Below, in pieces: positions 1 to 41,162 of a stretch of 52,302 bases of DNA; the stretch's first letter is position 1; the number at the start of each line of letters is the position of its first letter. Origin of the DNA: Planctomycetia bacterium (GTDB lineage Bacteria > Planctomycetota > Planctomycetia > Pirellulales > JALHLM01). Both the position numbers and the translations under genes were made by a program. The notes beneath the pieces are model-generated. The model was not told where the DNA came from and searched no databases. It worked only from the letters and a program-made list of their open reading frames with translations. The stretch covers positions 1 through 52,302 of the forward strand of contig JAWXBP010000016.1 of the NCBI GenBank assembly GCA_034440135.1, written 5' to 3'.

Positions 1-89
1 CGGCGGGCCTACTCGACCAATAAGCGCCGTCGATTTGCGCTTCGATGATTTCCGGCGGGCAATGCTCTATTTCGATGTCCCGGCCCGCC
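1..89. repeat. Partial inverted repeat at the window edge
   Basis: GGCGGGCC at 2-9 is the reverse complement of GGCCCGCC at 82-89, which runs into the stop codon of the dehydrogenase gene (90-92). The left arm may continue outside the window, so the true arm length cannot be judged. It resembles the other long inverted repeats in this window in sitting exactly at a gene end. Confidence 0.35.
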
Positions 90-1166
90 CTACGCGGAAT
101 TAAGCGCCGCGAGAATCCGGTCGCCCATTTCGCTCGTGGTGAGGCGGCCGCCGAGGTCGGGCGTGCGTTCGCCTTCTGCCAGGCATTGTTCGACGGCGCG
201 GCGGATGCGCGCCGCGGCGCTGGGTTCCTGGAGCCAGTCGAGCATCATGGCGGCGCTTAACATTGCAGCCGTGGGGTTGGCGATGCCTTTGCCGGCGATA
301 TCCGGCGCGGACCCGTGGACCGGCTCGAACATTGAGGGGAACGTGCGCTCTGGATTGAGATTGGCGCTTGGCGCGAGTCCCAAGCCGCCGCCGAGGACGC
401 CGCCCAGATCGGTCAGTAGATCGCCGAACAGGTTGGAAGCGACGACGACATCGAACGCCTCCGGCCAGCGGACGAAATTCATCACTGCTGCGTCGGCGTG
501 TTGCTTGTCGGTGACGACGTCGATGTATTGCGGCGTAATCTCGTCGAGGATTTCATCCCACAATACGTAGCTATAGCGCATGGCGTTCGACTTGGTGATC
601 ATCGTCAGCTTGCGCCGCCGTGTTCGCGCGAGCTGAAAGCCGAAGTGCAGGATGCGCTCAATGCCGCGCCGCGTGTGAATGGCCGTTTGCAGCGCGAATT
701 CTTCCGGCTGGCCGATCTTGAACCGTCCGCCGTTGTTGACGTATTCCCCTTCGGAGTTCTCGCGCACGACGATCAGGTCGATGTCGCCGCTCTTTTTGGA
801 GGCCAGCACGCTTTTCAACCCGGGAAACAACTTTGCGGGGCGCACGCAGGCGTATTGATCGAAGCGCTGGCGGAGTTCCACGAGCGGCGCGAGCGTCACA
901 TGATCCGGTAGCTCGGCTGGCCAGCCCACCGCGCCCAGCAAGATCGCATCCTGTCCGCGGAGTTGATCGAGGAAATCCGCCGGCGCGACGCGGCCGTGCT
1001 TGCGGTGGTAGTTCACGCCCCAGGGAAGCCAGGTGTATTCGAGCTTCAGGCCAGGTTCGAACGACTGGACTTGGTCAAGTACGCGGATCGCCTGATCGAT
1101 CACTTCCTGGCCAATGCCGTCGCCGGGGTAGACGGCGATGCGATGACGACGAGGCGCGGGGGGCAT
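90..1166 (-). CDS. Isocitrate/isopropylmalate dehydrogenase family protein, tartrate or D-malate dehydrogenase type
   Basis: This is an NAD-dependent decarboxylating dehydrogenase of the beta-decarboxylating family (358 aa from the chosen start). The N-terminus has the family signature YPGDGIGQEVI. The substrate-binding arginines lie around RQRFDQYACVRP, and the metal/NAD region DLLTDLGGVLGGGLGLAPSA followed by FEPVHGSAPDIAGKG is intact. VVRENSEGEYVNNGG is the form typical of the tartrate/D-malate dehydrogenase subgroup rather than LeuB, so oxidation of D-malate or tartrate is the likely reaction; the exact substrate is inference. A longer GTG start at 1211 exists, but it falls inside a perfect 28-bp inverted repeat and adds 15 residues that look like translated repeat. 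ATG at 1166 (MPPAPRRHRIAV) is therefore preferred. It lies downstream of psd on the same strand and may be the last gene of that cluster. Confidence 0.88.
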   Translation of the reverse strand: MPPAPRRHRIAVYPGDGIGQEVIDQAIRVLDQVQSFEPGLKLEYTWLPWGVNYHRKHGRVAPADFLDQLRGQDAILLGAVGWPAELPDHVTLAPLVELRQRFDQYACVRPAKLFPGLKSVLASKKSGDIDLIVVRENSEGEYVNNGGRFKIGQPEEFALQTAIHTRRGIERILHFGFQLARTRRRKLTMITKSNAMRYSYVLWDEILDEITPQYIDVVTDKQHADAAVMNFVRWPEAFDVVVASNLFGDLLTDLGGVLGGGLGLAPSANLNPERTFPSMFEPVHGSAPDIAGKGIANPTAAMLSAAMMLDWLQEPSAAARIRRAVEQCLAEGERTPDLGGRLTTSEMGDRILAALNSA

Positions 1167-1207
1167 GTTTTTGCTCGTTTCGATGACAGACGTTTTGAGC
1201 GAGTCGA

Positions 1208-1268
1208 CCACAGTCTCCTTTCGCTCCGCGAAAGGCCGGACCTTTCGCGGAGCGAAAGGAGACTGTGG
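1208..1268. repeat. Perfect 28-bp inverted repeat, CCTTTCGC/GCGAAAGG type
   Basis: Arms 1208-1235 and 1241-1268 are perfect reverse complements around a 5-nt loop (CCGGA). The core is CTTTCGCTCCGCGAAAGG, itself nearly palindromic, so each arm can also fold alone. It fills the psd to dehydrogenase gap. A second, single-armed copy lies at 50674-50702 with one base changed in the shared outer part. No T-tract follows, so it is not a canonical terminator. Confidence 0.9.
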
Positions 1269-1277
1269 GGTCGCATG

Positions 1278-2249
1278 CTACGTTTGATACTTCGCCAGCA
1301 CGTCGGCGCCAGCACAGACTTTTTGGCCGAGTTGGGCGATAATTTCCAAGCCCTCCGTGGCCGGCAAGTATAGTTCCGTGCGCGAGCCGAGTTTGATCAT
1401 GCCGAACTTGTGTCCACGCGTGACGGATTCACCCGGGCGGAGTTCGCAGACTATGCGTCGCGCGAATTGGCCGGCGATCTGCCGCACGGCGAAGCGGCGA
1501 TACGGCGGCTTTTCTTCTTCCATGCCGATCCACATCGCTTCGTTTTCGACCGCGCTCGCCGGATTGAGTGCACTGATGAACTGCCCGGGAAAATAACGTA
1601 GCGCCGTGACGCGGGCCGCAGCCGGTGCGCGATTGACGTGGACGTTGAAGATCGACAGGAACAGGCCGATGCGCACCGTCGGGCCGTCGATGTAGCCGTC
1701 GTATTCCAGCCGTGTGATGTCGACCACCTTGCCGTCGGCGGGCGAGACGAACAGGCTCGGCTCCTGGGGAATCGCTCGTTCCGGGTCGCGGAAGAACCAG
1801 ACGATGAGTCCGCAAATCACGCAGGTGACGGGCGCGATCAAGTAAAACGGAACATAGGTCCGGCGAAAGGTGCTGGCGGCGATAATGGTCACGAGCGCCA
1901 GGGGGTACGCCATCAATTGCAACTCGCAGAGGCCCCAGCGCGCGAACGGGACCCGCTCCCGCCACTGAAATGGATCGTCCGAGACCGGCCAGGACGCGGT
2001 GCATTGATTGCGGAAGTACTTCAAATCGCGCGGGTCGAGCACCTCGTGCGGACAGCCGGTTGGGTCGCCGTGGCGGAGCTTGGCCATCCGCACGACGTAC
2101 GCCTTGCGAAACGTCTTCAGGTACCAGCGGCGGACGCGGCCCCAGGCCAACTCGATCTGATAGCAAACGCCGCCGCCGGGCTGCACGCTCGGAATGTTGA
2201 CAGGCAGCGGTTCCAACTCGGCGCGCTGAGACGAATTCGTGTGGTTCAT
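1278..2249 (-). CDS. psd: Phosphatidylserine decarboxylase proenzyme family protein
   Basis: It converts phosphatidylserine to phosphatidylethanolamine at the inner membrane (323 aa). The C-terminal half is typical: VRIGLFLSIFNVHVNR, then the self-cleavage motif KLGSR near residue 289, whose serine would become the pyruvoyl group, then a short alpha-chain ending in VLAKYQT. LGSR corresponds to the FGSR form of the short prokaryotic class. Two hydrophobic helices (about residues 110-150) precede FFRDPER, a conserved membrane-edge motif of the family. The extra N-terminal region of about 100 residues, rich in basic and aromatic residues, is longer than in short-class enzymes and its role is unknown. 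ATG at 2249 is chosen because the upstream in-frame extension to 2363 runs through an intergenic inverted repeat. It is downstream of mlaEFD on the same strand, which suits phospholipid homeostasis. Confidence 0.88.
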   Translation of the reverse strand: MNHTNSSQRAELEPLPVNIPSVQPGGGVCYQIELAWGRVRRWYLKTFRKAYVVRMAKLRHGDPTGCPHEVLDPRDLKYFRNQCTASWPVSDDPFQWRERVPFARWGLCELQLMAYPLALVTIIAASTFRRTYVPFYLIAPVTCVICGLIVWFFRDPERAIPQEPSLFVSPADGKVVDITRLEYDGYIDGPTVRIGLFLSIFNVHVNRAPAAARVTALRYFPGQFISALNPASAVENEAMWIGMEEEKPPYRRFAVRQIAGQFARRIVCELRPGESVTRGHKFGMIKLGSRTELYLPATEGLEIIAQLGQKVCAGADVLAKYQT

Positions 2250-2327
2250 CACGATAAGCGTACTATCTGGACAGGGCAGCGCGGAGTGGGAGTGTTCGGC
2301 GTTGATTCCATAGTAGCGAGCGTAAAA

Positions 2328-2386
2328 CCCAGGGAAGGCCCCAATAGTCGTGGGCGATGGCAAAGTTCTGGGTGGCCTTCCCTGGG
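2328..2386. repeat. Inverted repeat family E (CCCAGGGAAGGCC), copy 1
   Basis: CCCAGGGAAGGCC at 2328-2340 and its perfect reverse complement at 2374-2386 enclose 33 nt. It lies in the mlaD to psd gap. Two further copies are at 15580-15643 and 27063-27127. Confidence 0.88.
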
Positions 2387-2406
2387 CTTGGCGGAGAAAG
2401 TCGTCG

Positions 2407-3483
2407 TTATTTGAACTTCGTCCCCGCTCCGGGGCGGACGGCGTCGCGCAGGACGCCGCCCGGATGGCGTGCCAGGCTGTCCGTGAACACTCGAATATCG
2501 CCCACTACCGGGCGGAGGTCCTTGGTGAGCTGGTTGATGTTCAGGACTGTGTTGTTCAGGTTGTAGTACAGGTCCGGGTTGTTGAGCAGTTGCGCGACGG
2601 TGCCTTCGGAATCGTTCAGGCGATCGGTGAACCGGCCGACGCCATCCAGGGCGTAGTTGAGCGTGGTCAGCGTGGTGTCGAATTTTGCGGCGATCTCTTC
2701 GCTGCGCTCGGCGAGCGGGGCGGTGATGCTCTCGACGTTCTTCAAAGTTCGATTCGCCGAACCGATGGCCACTTGCATCTCGTCGATCGTGGCGTGGGCG
2801 TCGGCCAGCAGCTTGGGTAAATCGGCCGCGGCCTGCTTGATGTTCGCGCGAAGTTCCGGGTCACCGGTGATTTCGTTGATGTTGTCCATCGACTTGTTCA
2901 GGTTGTCGAGCGTGCGCTCCGCCTTGTCGACGATCCGCGAAAGTTGATCATCCTCCGACGCCAGCACGCGATTGAGTCGCTGCGCCAGGCGGCTGATTTC
3001 CTGCCCGGCGAGCTCGACGCTCATCAAAGTGCGATTCACCGGGTCTTCGATCTCGCTGAGAATCGACGTGGGATCGACTTTGTCTTCGCCGACCAGCAAA
3101 TCGCCCGGCTGAATCTCGTCCGCCGGCAGGCCCAGATCCTCGCGTTTGACGAACGAGATTGCCGCGTCGCCGCCGATCAGCGAGCTACCGATGCGGGGCA
3201 CCTCGTTTTTCATCAGCTTGCGGTCCGCGTCAATTTCGGCCGTGACTAGTGCGCCGGCGTCTTCCTTCAGCTCCACATTGGTTACGCGGCCGATGGTGAT
3301 CCCACTTTTCTTGATCGGCGTATCGCGCACGACGCCGCTGCCGTCCTGAAAGGTGATGAAGACGGTGTAGCGGCGATGAAAAAACGACGGCAGCTCGCCA
3401 AACAGCAGCACGAGAATCCCCGTGATGCTGAAGGTGGCCAGCACCATCACGCCGACCCGAAACTGCATCGTGCGTTCGTCCAT
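2407..3483 (-). CDS. mlaD: MlaD-type MCE domain protein, lipid transport substrate-binding subunit
   Basis: This is a periplasmic, membrane-anchored MCE protein that would bind phospholipid for the MlaFE-type ABC transporter (358 aa). One N-terminal membrane segment (VMVLATFSITGILVLLFG) is followed by the MCE domain, with FQDGSGVVRDTPIKKSGI then IGRVTNVEL, typical of the family. The C-terminal half is long and helical with repeated hydrophobic and polar heptads (for example LDNLNKSMDNINEIT and LDGVGRFTDRLNDSEG), suggesting a coiled-coil barrel or tube extension. It is longer than E. coli MlaD, as in many non-proteobacterial homologues. ATG at 3483 (MDERTMQFRVG) is chosen because earlier codons add only a short unrelated leader. 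mlaF and mlaE lie upstream on the same strand. Confidence 0.88.
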   Translation of the reverse strand: MDERTMQFRVGVMVLATFSITGILVLLFGELPSFFHRRYTVFITFQDGSGVVRDTPIKKSGITIGRVTNVELKEDAGALVTAEIDADRKLMKNEVPRIGSSLIGGDAAISFVKREDLGLPADEIQPGDLLVGEDKVDPTSILSEIEDPVNRTLMSVELAGQEISRLAQRLNRVLASEDDQLSRIVDKAERTLDNLNKSMDNINEITGDPELRANIKQAAADLPKLLADAHATIDEMQVAIGSANRTLKNVESITAPLAERSEEIAAKFDTTLTTLNYALDGVGRFTDRLNDSEGTVAQLLNNPDLYYNLNNTVLNINQLTKDLRPVVGDIRVFTDSLARHPGGVLRDAVRPGAGTKFK

Positions 3484-3520
3484 GGCGGGAGCAGCTAGTG
3501 AAAGTAGGTGAGGTAACAAA

Positions 3521-3717
3521 GTAGGTCAGGCACCGCTGTCGATGTCAAAGTCACCGCGCCGAAATCACGTCGCAGCTACACCCAAAATGCTGCGCAGGTT
3601 TGTGCCTGACAGCATCGACGTCGCTCCTGTCAGGCACAAGCGGGTCAGCGACTCGGGGCATGAAGATGGTTTGATTCGATTCATGCCGTTTGCTTTCGAC
3701 TGCGGCACCTGACCTAC
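3521..3717. repeat. Nested inverted repeats, family F/G (GTAGGTCAGGC)
   Basis: Outer arms are GTAGGTCAGGCACCGC (3521-3536) and GCGGCACCTGACCTAC (3702-3717), complementary except for two central bases. Inside is a perfect 12-bp hairpin, TGTGCCTGACAG (3601-3612) with CTGTCAGGCACA (3627-3638). It fills most of the mlaF to mlaD gap. The GTAGGTCAGGC end is shared with the repeat at 11157-11248. Confidence 0.8.
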
Positions 3718-3744
3718 GTGATGGCGGCGCCTGAACTACGGGAT

Positions 3745-4575
3745 CTATTTGCTTCTCTCTAATTCTTGTAGGCGTTCACCCGCTTCGCCGCGGACGAATT
3801 GCGTTACGCGCGGGTCCGGGTGATCGTCGAGTTCTTCCGGGGCGCCGTCGAAGATGATTTGCGGTTCGCCGCGTTCCAGCCGGGACAGCGGATAGAACAT
3901 CACGATGCGGTCGGCCACCTTGCGGGCGGAGTGCATGTCGTGAGTGACCACGATGCCGGTCACGCCCGTGCGCTTGCGCGTGCGGAGGATTAACTCGTTG
4001 ATGACGTCGCTCATGATCGGGTCGAGGCCCGTGGTCGGCTCATCGTAGAGGACTACCTCGGGATTCATCGCCAACGCCCGGGCCAGGCCGACGCGTTTGC
4101 GCATGCCGCCGGAGAGTTCCGCCGGCTTCTTGCTCAGCACGTTTTCGGCGAGTCCGACCTCGAGCAAGCGTTCGCGGACGATGTCGTCGATCTCGCCGGC
4201 CTTCACGTCGTCGTTCTGGCGCAATGGGAACGCGATATTCTGGGCGATGGTCAAGCTGTCAAACAGCGCCGCCATCTGGAAAACGTAGCCGAACCGCAGA
4301 CGTTGTGCGGTGAGTTGCTTGTCATTCAGCTTGGTCAAGTCGCGGCCGTCGAAGATCACTTCGCCGCTTGTGGGACGCACGAGGCCGATCATCGTCTTCA
4401 AAAACACCGTCTTCCCGCACCCGCTCTCGCCGATGATCGCCACCGTCTGCCCGCGGGGGATCTCCAGGTCGATCTCGCGCAGCACCGCATTGCCGTCAAA
4501 CACGACGGACACGTCACGCGCCGTAATCAGCGGCTCGCCGGAGTCGGTCGGCGTTGGACGGCGGGTTTTGGGCAC
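3745..4575 (-). CDS. mlaF: MlaF-type ABC transporter ATP-binding protein
   Basis: This is the ATPase subunit of the MCE-linked phospholipid transporter (276 aa). It has Walker A GESGCGKT near residue 53, the Q-loop in FGYVFQMAALFDSLT, signature LSGGMRKRVGLARAL, Walker B VVLYDEPTTGLDP and the switch histidine in VVTHDM. FQMAALFDS and the GGMRKRV signature are characteristic of the MlaF subgroup. It would energise movement of phospholipid between the membranes together with MlaE (4718-5599) and MlaD (2407-3483), all on one strand in the order E, F, D. The direction of transport cannot be read from sequence. The gaps on both sides are filled with inverted repeats of different families. Confidence 0.92.
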   Translation of the reverse strand: MPKTRRPTPTDSGEPLITARDVSVVFDGNAVLREIDLEIPRGQTVAIIGESGCGKTVFLKTMIGLVRPTSGEVIFDGRDLTKLNDKQLTAQRLRFGYVFQMAALFDSLTIAQNIAFPLRQNDDVKAGEIDDIVRERLLEVGLAENVLSKKPAELSGGMRKRVGLARALAMNPEVVLYDEPTTGLDPIMSDVINELILRTRKRTGVTGIVVTHDMHSARKVADRIVMFYPLSRLERGEPQIIFDGAPEELDDHPDPRVTQFVRGEAGERLQELERSK

Positions 4576-4598
4576 TTCGGATTTTCCTAATGGATCTC

Positions 4599-4698
4599 AC
4601 TAGCCCGACGCGCAAGCGAGGGGGAGTTGACGTTGGCCGTGAGAACACGTCGTACTCAAATCGACGTCCGCTCCCCCTCGCTTGCGCGTCGGGCTAGT
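4599..4698. repeat. Inverted repeat family A (CTAGCCCG..GCGAGGG), copy 1
   Basis: Arms of 28 bp at 4599-4626 and 4671-4698 are perfect reverse complements; the outer end is ACTAGCCCGACGCGCAAG. The 44-nt spacer contains GTTGACGTTGG and ACGTCCGCT, also seen wholly or partly in the copies at 13471-13612 and 17166-17265. It lies in the mlaE to mlaF gap. Confidence 0.93.
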
Positions 4699-4717
4699 AA
4701 ATTCGCTTTCTCGTGCA

Positions 4718-5599
4718 TCAAATAATCCTTGGCCCTTCTGGCCAGAGGTAGAAGTAGAACGCGTCGAGCAGGATGCCGAGCAGGAGGTCGATGATGAGGA
4801 TGACGACGAACGAGGCGACGAAAGAATTGGTGGCGGCGCGGCCGACGCCTTCGGCGCCGGGATCGCAATGGAAGCCGCGATGACAGCTGATGACGGAGAT
4901 CGCGGCGCCGAAGAACAGGCTCTTGAAGACGCCGCTGAATAAGTCGAACAGACTCACGAACCGCTGGGAGTGGTCCCAGTAGTGGTGTGAATCGATGTGC
5001 AGAATCACCACGCTGTAAAACCAGCCGCCGGCCACGCCCATGAAGTCGGCCATGATGGTCAGCGTCGGAATCAAGAACAGGCAGCTCAGGAAGCGCGGGA
5101 CCACCAGATAATGAATGGGGTTCGCCCCCATGCTAGCGAGGGCGTCGATCTGCTCGGTGACTTTCATCGTGCCCAATTCGGCGGCCATCGCGCTGCCGAC
5201 GCGTCCGGCCAGCATGGTGGCGGCCAACACCGGCCCCAACTCGCGCACCAGCGACATATTGATCACCGCGCCAAGCCGCGTCTCCAAGCTGAGCACGCGG
5301 AACTGGGCATAACTCTGCACGGCGAGCACCATACCGATGAACGTTCCCGTCAAGGCGACGACCGGCAAGCTGAGGACGCCGATCTGATAAAAATTCGGGA
5401 TCAGCGTCTCGCGCCGCGGCAGCCGGGTGAACAGCCAGGACAAGGTGCTGAAACCAAACAGTGCCAGCCCGCCGAGGGCGACCATCCAACCGTTGAACTG
5501 CCGCCACATATCGAGCGCCGCCCGCCCCACACCGGAAAACAAGGCGCGCACCAGCCCGTTCCGCGGCGCGGCAACAGTGGGGAGCCTTCCGGTGGCCAT
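4718..5599 (-). CDS. mlaE: MlaE-type ABC transporter permease
   Basis: This is the integral inner-membrane permease of the MCE phospholipid transporter (293 aa). Several hydrophobic segments are visible (near residues 35-55, 75-100, 140-165 and a C-terminal pair). The MlaE signature [26 protein letters not shown] is interrupted by nothing and is close to consensus; [22 protein letters not shown] precedes it. The protein ends [14 protein letters not shown] at 5599 starts [12 protein letters not shown]. It is the first gene of the mla cluster, and 183 bp without a recognised gene lie upstream, where the cluster promoter would be expected; no clear promoter consensus was found there. Confidence 0.92.
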
Positions 5600-5782
5600 G
5601 GTTTGCGCCTCCGCTCAAAGAGCGCGCCGCCCGTCGGCGCGCAATGGGGCGCATAGACTATCGTCCGGCAAGAATTTAGGCGTGAGCAAAGTCTGCGGGT
5701 TGGGTGGATTTTAAGGTTGCAGGGCACGAATACGACTCGGGCAAGCTCGCCAATCTCCCCATCCTGGCTGGCTTCGCGCAAA

Positions 5783-7066
5783 CTAAGTGCATTGCCAATG
5801 CAGGCCGCTCACTTTGCAACTGTCGCACCAGAATACGTAGGCAATTCCCCCACTGCCCCAAAGGAGCTCTCCGCCCTCGGCGGTCGGCAATAGGGAGTCG
5901 AGCTGCATCAAGAACCCCATCTTCGTACCGCAAGACAAACAGTTAAGGTACTGTGCATCCTGAATCCATGTTGGATATCCGCCAACGCGATTGAGATTCT
6001 GTCGGCTATTTGAGTTCCCCCAATCCTGCCACCGCCAACGTTCGCCCGAATCAACGAACGCAACTTCGCAAGGAAGAATATCGCCTGCCGGGAATTCGGG
6101 CTCGCCTGGTTCGACAGTGAGGCAAGTTGGTTTACCGTCACTTTCGTGCCGGTAGTACATTCTTTCCTTTACCCAACCCAAGCACCGCAGGCAACACTCA
6201 ATCGTCAGACGGTTGAGTTCCGACACCCAGGGAAACCCCTCCGTGCAATTGGCGCTGATCAGGATGTTGGTGTGCCGTCCGCAACTGCCGCAGACGGCGT
6301 TTCCAATGCCTCCAATTCTGGCGCGCGATACAGCCGTGCTTGACGCGGTCCACGTCGGATGTTGCATGAGCCACGAAGGTCGGTCCGCGCGGAAATAGTC
6401 GTGCGGAAACGCTATGTGCAGTGGTTTGGGCAAATAAAGCGGCCTAACGCTCCCGTTCACTGATTCAAAGCCCACAGCATGCAAATAGTAGGCAAGCGTT
6501 AGCGGCTCCAGACCACCAGACGCCGTGTATGTTTCGCCTAAATCGATCTGTTTGGTTCGGTCTATCGCAGCGGCAAACGCGCTTTCGCTTCTGATTTGTA
6601 GGAGACAATCCCACGCCTTCTTTCTGATTCCCTGCGGCGCGCCCGTAGCATCGATTTGATCACATAGCCACTCAACCGCCGCGTCGTCGGCCTCCCTCCA
6701 GGGCCAATTTTTGTAGAAGCTACCTTGGTTCGGTGCGCGGTGAAAAATTGCGGGCAGATGTGGATGCAGCGAATTGACGCACTGCAGCGATGCATGGCAG
6801 ATTACCGAATCGGCCGAGGGCCAGTTCTGCTGCTTGTTCAATAGTTCGATCGCTTGACCGCTAAGTTCGGGCCAACGGTCGTTGGGAATGTAGCTCAATA
6901 CATCCTCAATGAATGTATGGCCGTCCTGCACGCAGGCCAGCAATTCGCGTGCTATTGCATACGCAGCGTCGGGAGACTCGTAGGCCATCGCGAGTCCGCG
7001 TTCCTGAGCATCGCATTTCCATTTCTTTTTCCCGAATTCGCGAACAAGTTGCGTAATTTCGTCCAT
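5783..7066 (-). CDS. Cys-rich protein with a DUF1963-like C-terminal region
   Basis: The function is not recognised. From ATG 7066 (MDEITQLVREFGKKKW) the protein has 427 aa. The first third is helical and resembles nothing specific. The C-terminal third has four paired-cysteine sites: VCGSCGRH, CCLRCLGW, NCLSCGTKMG and WCDSCKVS, suggesting one or two zinc sites. GGYPTWIQD followed by a cysteine pair and LMQLDS is a pattern seen in DUF1963/YwqG-like proteins, so a distant relation is likely. The coding sequence is visibly AT-richer than its neighbours and uses more A/T-ending codons, which suggests acquisition by transfer. The upstream in-frame extension to 7123 has no family support. It lies between the mla cluster and the DUF1501 gene, same strand. 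Confidence 0.6.
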   Translation of the reverse strand: MDEITQLVREFGKKKWKCDAQERGLAMAYESPDAAYAIARELLACVQDGHTFIEDVLSYIPNDRWPELSGQAIELLNKQQNWPSADSVICHASLQCVNSLHPHLPAIFHRAPNQGSFYKNWPWREADDAAVEWLCDQIDATGAPQGIRKKAWDCLLQIRSESAFAAAIDRTKQIDLGETYTASGGLEPLTLAYYLHAVGFESVNGSVRPLYLPKPLHIAFPHDYFRADRPSWLMQHPTWTASSTAVSRARIGGIGNAVCGSCGRHTNILISANCTEGFPWVSELNRLTIECCLRCLGWVKERMYYRHESDGKPTCLTVEPGEPEFPAGDILPCEVAFVDSGERWRWQDWGNSNSRQNLNRVGGYPTWIQDAQYLNCLSCGTKMGFLMQLDSLLPTAEGGELLWGSGGIAYVFWCDSCKVSGLHWQCT

Positions 7067-7129
7067 GTGATATCCTCGCTCCGGAAAAACGGGGCACGTC
7101 GAAACGCGTAGATCTGCTCGCACTTAACA

Positions 7130-8554
7130 TTACCCAAACAGCTCCATCACCGGCTCCCCCAGCCCATCCTTCGTCACATAAAACGGCCGGCGTTCGATTT
7201 CGTAGCCGTGGTTGGCGGGAATGCCGAGGGCGCGGTAGATCGTGGCGTGGAGGGCTTCGATCTGGATCGGGTTTTCGATCGTCTTGCAGGGGCGTTCGTC
7301 GGCGGTCTTGCCGTAGAGGAAGCCCTTTTTCATGCCGCCGCCGAACATCAGCACGCAGCCGGCGTCGGTGAAGTGGCGGTGCATGCCGTAGTATTTCAGC
7401 TCGTTGACCACGTCCGGCACTTCGACCTGATCCTTGACCTGATTGCCTGGCTTGCCTTCCATCATCATGTCGCGGCTGAATTCGCTGGCCAACACGACCA
7501 GCGTGCGATCGAGCAGCCCGCGGGCTTCGAGGTCGAGAATCAATTGCGCGATCGGCGCGTCGATCTCGGGCTTCAATTCCGAGAGCCGTGTGTGGCCGTT
7601 GTCGTGCGTGTCCCAATGTTTAAAGGGGATGTATTCGGTGGTGACTTCGATAAACCGCGCGCCGACTTCGACCAATCGCCGCGCGAGCAAGCAGCCGAGC
7701 CCGAAGCGGCCGGTGTTGTATTTGTCGTAGCTTTCCTTCGGCTCCTCGCTTAGGTCGAACGCCTTCGCCGCCGGCGAGCTAAGCAACCGGTAGGCGTTTT
7801 CGACGCTCCGCTCCAGCGACTCGCGTTGATAGTCGCTGCCATGTTGCGCTACCGGGCTCTGCGCGATGAGCTTGCGATACGACTCGTACCGGGCGTTGAA
7901 GCGTTCGGCGCTCATGCCGCCGGGCGGGCGAATCGCGTTCACGGCCTGGTCCGGATACGGCAGCAAGAAGGGGCCGTACTCGGTGCCGAGGAAGCCGGCC
8001 TGGTGAAAGGCCTTGAGTTCCTCCCCTTCCCCGACGTCGAACCTTTGCCCGATATCGATGAAGGCCGGCACCACAGGATCGCGCGGGCCGAGCGTCTTCG
8101 AGATCCACGCCCCGATGTGCGGCGCGGCCACGGTTTGCGGCGGGGCGTAACCGGTGTGCCAGTGATATTGATGACGCGAGTGGAGAATGAAGCCCAAGTC
8201 GCCGGCGCGGTAGGAGCGGATCAACGTCCCGCGATCCATCACCGCGGCCGTCTTCTCCAGTCCGGCCGAAAACTTGATGTTGTCCACCGCGGTGTCGATC
8301 GTAGGAAACGTGCTGAGAATGCGATTCGACTCGACGCCCGGCTCGAACGGCGTGTACCGCTTGGGGTCAAACGTCTCGGTAGCGGCCATCCCGCCCCCCA
8401 TCCACAACACGATCACCGCATCCGCCGTGGCGGGCAGCAGCACATCGGAAGTCAACTCCGCGTGCAGCCCGCGCGGCGAACCGGCCGCCAACGCGGACAA
8501 AGTGGCCGCGGAAGCAGTCTTGAGAAAGTCACGGCGAGAGGGGGAGGAGGACAT
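7130..8554 (-). CDS. DUF1501 domain protein, Tat-exported
   Basis: This is a secreted sulfatase-like-fold protein of the DUF1501 family (474 aa), greatly expanded in planctomycetes. The N-terminus is a twin-arginine signal (SRRDFLK at residues 6-12, followed by an alanine-rich segment ending LHA), so it is likely exported folded. Family features include ADAVIVLWMGGGMAATETFDPK near the start and LDRTLVVLASEFSR then a GGGMKKGFLYGKTADE region near the C-terminus. In planctomycetes these genes usually sit directly beside a DUF1549/DUF1553 gene and are co-expressed; here that partner (9126-11060) is separated by a GxxExxY cassette. The biochemical role is not established. A GAGG ribosome-binding sequence sits about 7 nt before the ATG. 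Confidence 0.9.
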   Translation of the reverse strand: MSSSPSRRDFLKTASAATLSALAAGSPRGLHAELTSDVLLPATADAVIVLWMGGGMAATETFDPKRYTPFEPGVESNRILSTFPTIDTAVDNIKFSAGLEKTAAVMDRGTLIRSYRAGDLGFILHSRHQYHWHTGYAPPQTVAAPHIGAWISKTLGPRDPVVPAFIDIGQRFDVGEGEELKAFHQAGFLGTEYGPFLLPYPDQAVNAIRPPGGMSAERFNARYESYRKLIAQSPVAQHGSDYQRESLERSVENAYRLLSSPAAKAFDLSEEPKESYDKYNTGRFGLGCLLARRLVEVGARFIEVTTEYIPFKHWDTHDNGHTRLSELKPEIDAPIAQLILDLEARGLLDRTLVVLASEFSRDMMMEGKPGNQVKDQVEVPDVVNELKYYGMHRHFTDAGCVLMFGGGMKKGFLYGKTADERPCKTIENPIQIEALHATIYRALGIPANHGYEIERRPFYVTKDGLGEPVMELFG

Positions 8555-13459: not shown

Positions 13460-13470
13460 AGCGCGAACAT

Positions 13471-24792: not shown

Positions 24793-24946
24793 TCGGAATG
24801 CCGAAATCCGAATGACGAATCAATTCCGAATGTCGAATGTCTAAATGGCCACGCCCCGCCATCTTTCGTAGAGCCCCTGTTTCGACATTCGGATTTCGAC
24901 ATTCATTCGTCATTCGAGCTTCGAAATTCGACATTCCGCTTGCCCC
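24793..24946. repeat. Repeat family J (GAATGTCGAATG), copy 2
   Basis: Units GGAATGCCGAAATCCGAATG and CCGAATGTCGAATGTC (24795-24841) face inverse units TTCGACATTCGGATTTCGAC, ATTCATTCGTCATTCGAG and AAATTCGACATTCC (24900-24946). The arms are imperfect and built of repeated 10-12-bp units. It sits between the NTPase stop and lpxD. Confidence 0.8.
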
Positions 24947-41076: not shown

Positions 41077-41162
41077 GTGGGTGGCTGGGGTCGAGCGTAG
41101 TCGCTCGCCCCCAGCGCATTCGACCTGGGGGCGAATGAGTACATTCGACCCCAGCCACCCAC
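41077..41162. repeat. Nested inverted repeat I between convergent genes
   Basis: Outer arms GTGGGTGGCTGGGGTCGA (41077-41094) and the perfect inverse (41145-41162) enclose an inner perfect 10-bp hairpin, TCGCCCCCAG (41105-41114) with CTGGGGGCGA (41125-41134). AATTTTTG follows on the plus strand. It lies between the ankyrin gene and ahcY, so a bidirectional terminator role is possible. Confidence 0.85.

Follow-up and report, generated by a model that had tools for sequence, protein, structure and literature searches.

The mla-psd cluster has four successive gaps (mlaE/mlaF, mlaF/mlaD, mlaD/psd and psd/dehydrogenase), each occupied by a strong inverted repeat that belongs to a different multicopy family. 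We consider it very probable (about 0.85) that every gap was filled independently by a copy of a multicopy palindromic repeat, and that families A, F/G and C are REP/BIME-type elements that entered a formerly compact mla operon. A cluster whose hairpins had been suggested to control an outer-membrane lipid operon by design thus becomes a documented case of REP turnover within an operon, with two close species compared. The analysis also ties three unrelated planctomycete palindrome families to three types of Y1 transposase: a putative, divergent class 3 TnpA_Y1 (A), a canonical RAYT (F/G) and a divergent RAYT (C).

The window, meaning the whole stretch of 52,302 nucleotides that was analysed, is contig 16 of genome G000 (assembly of 7.29 Mb in 534 contigs). 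It was compared with a sister species (G001) and with other relatives, among them G002, G147, G159 and G220. The named genomes closest by MlaE belong to Planctomycetota and Pirellulales.

Inverted repeats in the four gaps

Pfam and NCBIfam profile matches identified the genes of the cluster, and ORF and profile annotation placed all five on the minus strand (Table 1). Both the single coding strand and the succession of four different repeat families had been reported in the preliminary description and were recovered here. The family E element was likewise found in the mlaD/psd gap, although the limits first given for it (2328-2386) were slightly too narrow. ATG 1166 is preferred over GTG 1211 as the start of the dehydrogenase gene because the upstream extension is missing in the sister species; the GTG, which falls within the C hairpin, is not present there.

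Table 1. Genes of the mla-psd cluster and the repeat elements between them (window coordinates).
Feature	Position	Strand	Details
mlaE (permease)	4718-5599	-	PF02405 265 bits, TIGR00056
Family A element, mlaE/mlaF gap	4599-4698		arms 4599-4633/4664-4698, 35 nt, 94% complementary
mlaF-like ABC ATPase	3745-4575	-	PF00005; NF008809 below cut-off
Family F/G element, mlaF/mlaD gap	3521-3717		outer arms 3521-3549/3689-3717; inner palindrome 3600-3639; begins GTAGGTCAGGCAC
mlaD-like MCE protein	2407-3483	-	PF02470 37.8 bits
Family E element, mlaD/psd gap	2325-2389		arms 2325-2340/2374-2389, 16 nt, 94%; AAACCCAGGGAAGGCC/GGCCTTCCCTGGGCTT
psd, phosphatidylserine decarboxylase	1278-2252	-	PF02666 133 bits
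Family C element, psd/dehydrogenase gap	1208-1268		arms 1208-1235/1241-1268, 28 nt, 100%
Isopropylmalate/tartrate-type dehydrogenase	90-1166	-	PF00180 316 bits

The C element is an inverted pair of CCTTTCGC-TCC-GCGAAAGG hairpins. From the coordinates, the distance between the upstream stop codon and the element is 19 nt for A, 27 nt for F/G, 17 nt for E and 9 nt for C, and a further 23, 37, 72 and 41 nt, respectively, separate the elements from the next start. RNA folding of the transcript strand gave -80.9 kcal/mol for A (z -11.6 versus shuffles), -99.4 kcal/mol for F/G (z -6.7), -36.1 kcal/mol for E (z -4.6) and -58.5 kcal/mol for C (z -13.1). The expectation of a large hairpin in every intercistronic region was therefore borne out, with all four predicted folds far beyond chance. 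Intrinsic termination was considered for A, C, E and F/G and rejected, since no T tract lies behind any of them and none of eight terminator-like matches coincides with an element. An Rfam search of window positions 1-6000 returned no match.

Gap contents in relatives and placement of the repeats

The proteins of the sister species are 100% (MlaE), 92% (MlaF), 97% (MlaD) and 94% (Psd) identical to those of the window over the best aligned segments. A comparison of gap contents with relatives, proposed in the preliminary description, gave a divided outcome for these two species. The mlaD/psd gap holds E in both, and the mlaF/mlaD gap holds F/G in both, in a heavily rearranged form. In contrast, the A element of the window is replaced by an F/G-type element in the mlaE/mlaF gap of the sister species, and the C hairpin is absent from its psd/dehydrogenase gap, where the aligned flanks are 9 bp apart as against 118 bp in the window. 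The C-site difference between these two genomes may represent a gain in the window lineage or a loss in the sister species; psd-dehydrogenase linkage was not found outside the genus.

Three A sites of the window could be compared: those at 4599 and 17163 lack A in the sister species, and that at 13467 is common to both. Turnover of gap content was also observed at 24796-24929, where the window carries a GAATGCCGAAATCC palindrome and the sister species has an unrelated inverted repeat, TTTGAACCGCGGAGGCGCTGAG, instead. Between mlaE and the next gene (7130-8554), about 1.4 kb of the window (5713-7130) contains an ORF (5783-7066) with a weak DUF1963 match; the equivalent stretch of the sister genome is occupied by an A-type element.

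The mlaE, mlaF and mlaD genes of other relatives are often spaced by less than 30 bp or overlap, with exceptions of up to 441 bp. This tight spacing indicates that the compact operon is the likely ancestral form and that the elements are later guests, and it also makes co-transcription of mlaE-mlaF-mlaD plausible. Neither psd nor the dehydrogenase gene was found beside mla in the regions fetched from other relatives.

Families A and C are each present in about 40 or more copies in the genome (40 candidates were scored for each of families A, C and E, and those of A comprised 80 matches), and the F/G copies found by the genome copy search are strongly diverged. Among the fetched copies of A, 30 of 34 lie in gaps, two within genes and two at contig edges. 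One-strand gaps hold 21 of 34 copies of A, 15 of 29 of C and 9 of 13 of F/G, and E occurs in gaps of all orientations (17 one-strand, 11 convergent and 12 divergent). Across all families, 62 of the 80 one-strand copies sit nearer to the upstream gene's end than to the start that follows (p 8e-7), and for A, C, E and F/G only, this holds for 54 of 62. The same placement has been reported for REPs of other bacteria (PMC3733652). No such bias was seen for two further repeat families, N24796 and N13996.

Of the 41 gaps in the window, 16 are occupied, together by 17 elements from eight families. When 16 occupied gaps were distributed at random among gaps of at least 40 bp, at least four occupied one-strand gaps followed one another in 17% of deals, and four drawn elements all belonged to different families in 50% of draws. 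The idea that the run of four is special was rejected on this P of ~0.17 at the element density of the window. A set of 20 sampled contigs had a lower density, with 16 elements in 180 kb, a difference that is partly ascertainment because the repeat library came largely from the window. As a rough figure, pooled occupancy predicts ~15 such runs genome-wide (0.227 to the fourth power multiplied by ~5500 gaps).

These results bear on the proposal that the four hairpins have been selected as a regulatory set, in which each one sets the stability or translation of its neighbour through REP-like processing of the mla-psd transcript. Such a set would account for very stable RNA hairpins in all four gaps, for their position behind stop codons and clear of start codons, and for the persistence of E and F/G in the corresponding gaps of the sister species; REPs are moreover known to act as exonuclease barriers and to lower translation when located within 15 nt of a stop codon (PMC12306157). 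However, A and C do not occupy the same sites in the sister species despite protein identities of 92-100%, which speaks against control by a dedicated hairpin in each gap. Gaps of this kind are also mostly missing in other relatives, a four-gap run is expected by chance with the probability given above, and the same repeat families lie behind many other genes. A selected set is consequently quite unlikely. The absence of A and C in the sister species, of psd and the dehydrogenase gene beside mla elsewhere, and of T tracts likewise argues against a conserved role for the individual gaps.

Transposases linked to the repeat families

Family F/G is linked to canonical RAYTs. In the sister species, a RAYT gene (L200 1109-1669) scores 190.6 bits against NF047646 (cut-off 80) and carries the GTAGGTCAGGC tag within a few bp on both sides, at 1102 and at 1673; in G002, a RAYT 59% identical to it (L204 1357-1908) has the GTAGGTCAGGC tag at 1356 and 1955, within 50 bp. 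The occurrence of RAYTs above the cut-off with the tag on both sides in these two genomes identifies F/G as a GTAG-tagged REP.

The core of family C, GTC[GT]CCTTTCGCTCCGCGAAAG, was found as an inverted dimer in 28 of 246 genomes of the order, spread over 22 of 114 genera, and a literature text search with this core found no paper. In two genomes of other genera (G147, L344; G159, L357), a Y1-like ORF of ~214-222 aa lies between C repeats. The encoded proteins score 54.2 and 42 bits against the RAYT model NF047646, below its cut-off of 80. No C-flanked Y1 transposase was found in the window's own genome or in the sister species.

The unit of family A consists of a CTAG foot followed by CCC-GA-CGC-GCAA-GCG-A-GGG, and an element comprises two units in inverted orientation. 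As single-stranded DNA, a unit is predicted to form an unpaired tag and an imperfect hairpin, with a weak fold (z -1.7). Among the units folded with it, that of E gave no significant fold, and the C oligonucleotide has three end bases that are absent from the window. Two A elements, 94% and 92% identical to that of the window, are found upstream of mlaE in the sister species (L155 4441-4540 and 5855-5954). They bracket two ORFs, one of the GIY-YIG type (MUG113, T5orf172) and one of 163 aa that weakly resembles Y1_Tnp. L155 4441-5954, just upstream of mlaE, is thus an entire A-type element in the order A, GIY-YIG gene, transposase, A. No close relative of the GIY-YIG protein was found among the other loci fetched.

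Homologues of the 163-aa ORF were found in 99 of the 246 genomes searched from the order, and A-like units were found at 26 of 30 inspected homologue loci. The outer stem of these units covaries (CCC/GGG, CAC/GTG, CCT/AGG and CCG/CGG) and the inner stem is either CGC/GCG or GGC/GCC, with statistics that lean towards pairing because a candidate unit had to have two or all three of its outer pairs to be counted. Palindromes on both sides of the gene were found at a number of loci without the outer-pair filter. At one further locus (G220, L225 1998-2773), units of the class 3 type form short tandem arrays with a 29-bp period next to a class 3 transposase gene.

Twelve aligned A-type transposases share invariant N93, H94, V95, H96, Y153 and Q158 residues, which form NHVH and Y----Q motifs. 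Comparison with RAYT profiles gave an hhalign probability of 79% (E 1.6e-5) over a region that spans the HUH and tyrosine motifs. All 12 tested proteins match PF01797 (Y1_Tnp) weakly (E 0.1 or better; best 2.8e-9), and the protein of the sister species scores 15.9 bits, below the curated cut-off of 23. A PDB profile search with the alignment yielded only a weak match to the putative transposase 2f4f (E 0.35). The class 3 TnpA_Y1 proteins in the literature come from Planctomycetes, Acidobacteria and Proteobacteria; they have the NHVH and Y----Q motifs, and the hairpins on either side of them are atypical and carry a CnGA foot (PMC6006769). The PF01797 cut-off score is not a defining feature of the class (Quentin et al. 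2018, PMC6006769). Judged by its motifs and this published description, the family A transposase fits class 3.

The window's own genome contains many copies of A and C and some of F/G. Its five Y1 matches (contigs 374, 285, 377 and 231) include none of the cognate transposases of the relatives: none is the F/G RAYT, and the homologue search of 246 genomes of the order found no class 3 transposase in G000. Both observations count against the preferred reading; as the genome is ~96% complete, loss and an assembly gap are both possible. A fourth repeat-transposase pair was observed in this genome, in which the palindrome family GTGGGTGGCTGGGG (window 41077-41162) flanks a RAYT gene (contig 374, L044 134-974) that passes NF047646.

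The overall shape of the elements, palindromes of 60-200 bp with terminal inverted repeats, superficially resembles that of MITEs mobilized by classical DDE transposases. This origin is highly improbable, given that A, F/G and C adjoin Y1/HUH transposase genes in relatives and are built from small tagged hairpins, as REPs are. We infer instead that A, F/G and C, as inverted pairs of such hairpins, would have been copied in trans by family-specific Y1 (HUH) transposases and would have landed in a planctomycete mla cluster whose ancestral form was a compact operon. Copies would survive mostly behind the end of the upstream gene, where an insertion should harm neither coding sequence nor start signals. 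At this locus, A and C would be lineage-specific, and E and F/G would have been in place before the two species diverged. Neither a target-site signature nor a clean insertion of a single element was recovered, which counts against this reading.

Family E differs in several respects. It was detected in just four of 246 genomes at the cut-off used, and no transposase was found beside it at any Y1 locus or E locus fetched, which also counts against the preferred reading. It is common to both species at all three comparable sites. Between these orthologous copies, the arms differ at 4 of 102 positions and the loops at 21 of 92 (p 8e-5). This difference could reflect gene conversion, between arms or between copies, or equally well purifying selection that maintains the hairpin structure, and in the latter case it too tells against the preferred reading. 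E could therefore be a maintained hairpin, an RNA or DNA binding element older than the species split, and not a mobile REP, with mobility confined to A, C and F/G. We regard this as possible but doubtful. E is a lone stem of 16-27 nt, it occupies gaps of every orientation, and the region that contains it has no Rfam match. Its copies are ~74-83% identical to the query, as expected of an old mobile repeat, and the copy in the mla cluster has one unpaired position in each species.

Effects on expression and comparison with known systems

The preliminary description had offered two readings of the gaps, differential control of each gene or tolerated landing sites. Transposase linkage, turnover between sister species and the compact operon in relatives favor the second: at least three of the families are mobile repeats of the REP type, each paired with its own transposase in relatives, and the elements are located between genes, mostly behind the end of the upstream gene. 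The arrangement is thus mostly ordinary genome wear and not a designed control system. In the mRNA, the elements would form very stable hairpins that are not intrinsic terminators, and their most likely consequence would be a modest side effect, such as a barrier to 3' exonucleases or mild polarity. C alone, 9 nt past the psd stop codon, has the position at which REPs of E. coli lower the translation of the gene before them. Any effect of the hairpins on expression would be species-specific. That E is a maintained, arm-conserved hairpin behind many genes of the genus and that the lineage-specific C lowers Psd output seems unlikely as a combination; if true, neighbouring species would differ in the control of phospholipid synthesis through repeat insertion alone.

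Insertion of REP/BIME elements is of a known kind, and the pairing with a class 3 transposase extends a sparsely described group. In E. coli, REPs form barriers to exonucleases and can cause ribosomes to stall when the stop codon is no more than 15 nt away (PMC12306157). The elements described here resemble intercistronic E. coli REPs in placing a stable mRNA hairpin, here a predicted fold, behind a gene within an operon, but of the four, C is the only one that falls inside this 15-nt limit. Family F/G shares with GTAG REPs and their RAYTs (Nunvar 2010, PMC2817692; Di Nocera 2013, PMC3733652) the GTAG tag, the inverted pairs, a location in one-strand or convergent intergenic gaps and a canonical RAYT (NF047646, WQRRFWEH, YIHYNPVKHG) that is directly flanked by the tag. 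It differs in its long (~90-200 bp), composite and strongly diverged copies, and in that no such RAYT was seen in the window's own genome.

REPINs (Bertels and Rainey 2011, PMC3116915) are multicopy inverted pairs of short tagged hairpins that are thought to be copied in trans. Family C is likewise a multicopy inverted pair of short tagged hairpins, but its tag, GTC[GT]C, precedes CTTTCGC-TCC-GCGAAAG, and its linked transposase falls under the RAYT cut-off. Family A agrees with the class 3 'REPtron-like' elements (PMC6006769) in the NHVH and Y----Q motifs, the occurrence in Planctomycetes, the atypical flanking hairpins, the high copy number and a CnGA-type foot (CCGA or CTGA in 25 of 66 A-like units). 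Unlike those elements, its units have an outer CTAG/xxAG foot, and the copy in the sister species carries a GIY-YIG (MUG113) gene between the flanking repeats. Class 3 has been described as very rare, whereas its A-type relatives occur in 40% of the sampled genomes of this order.
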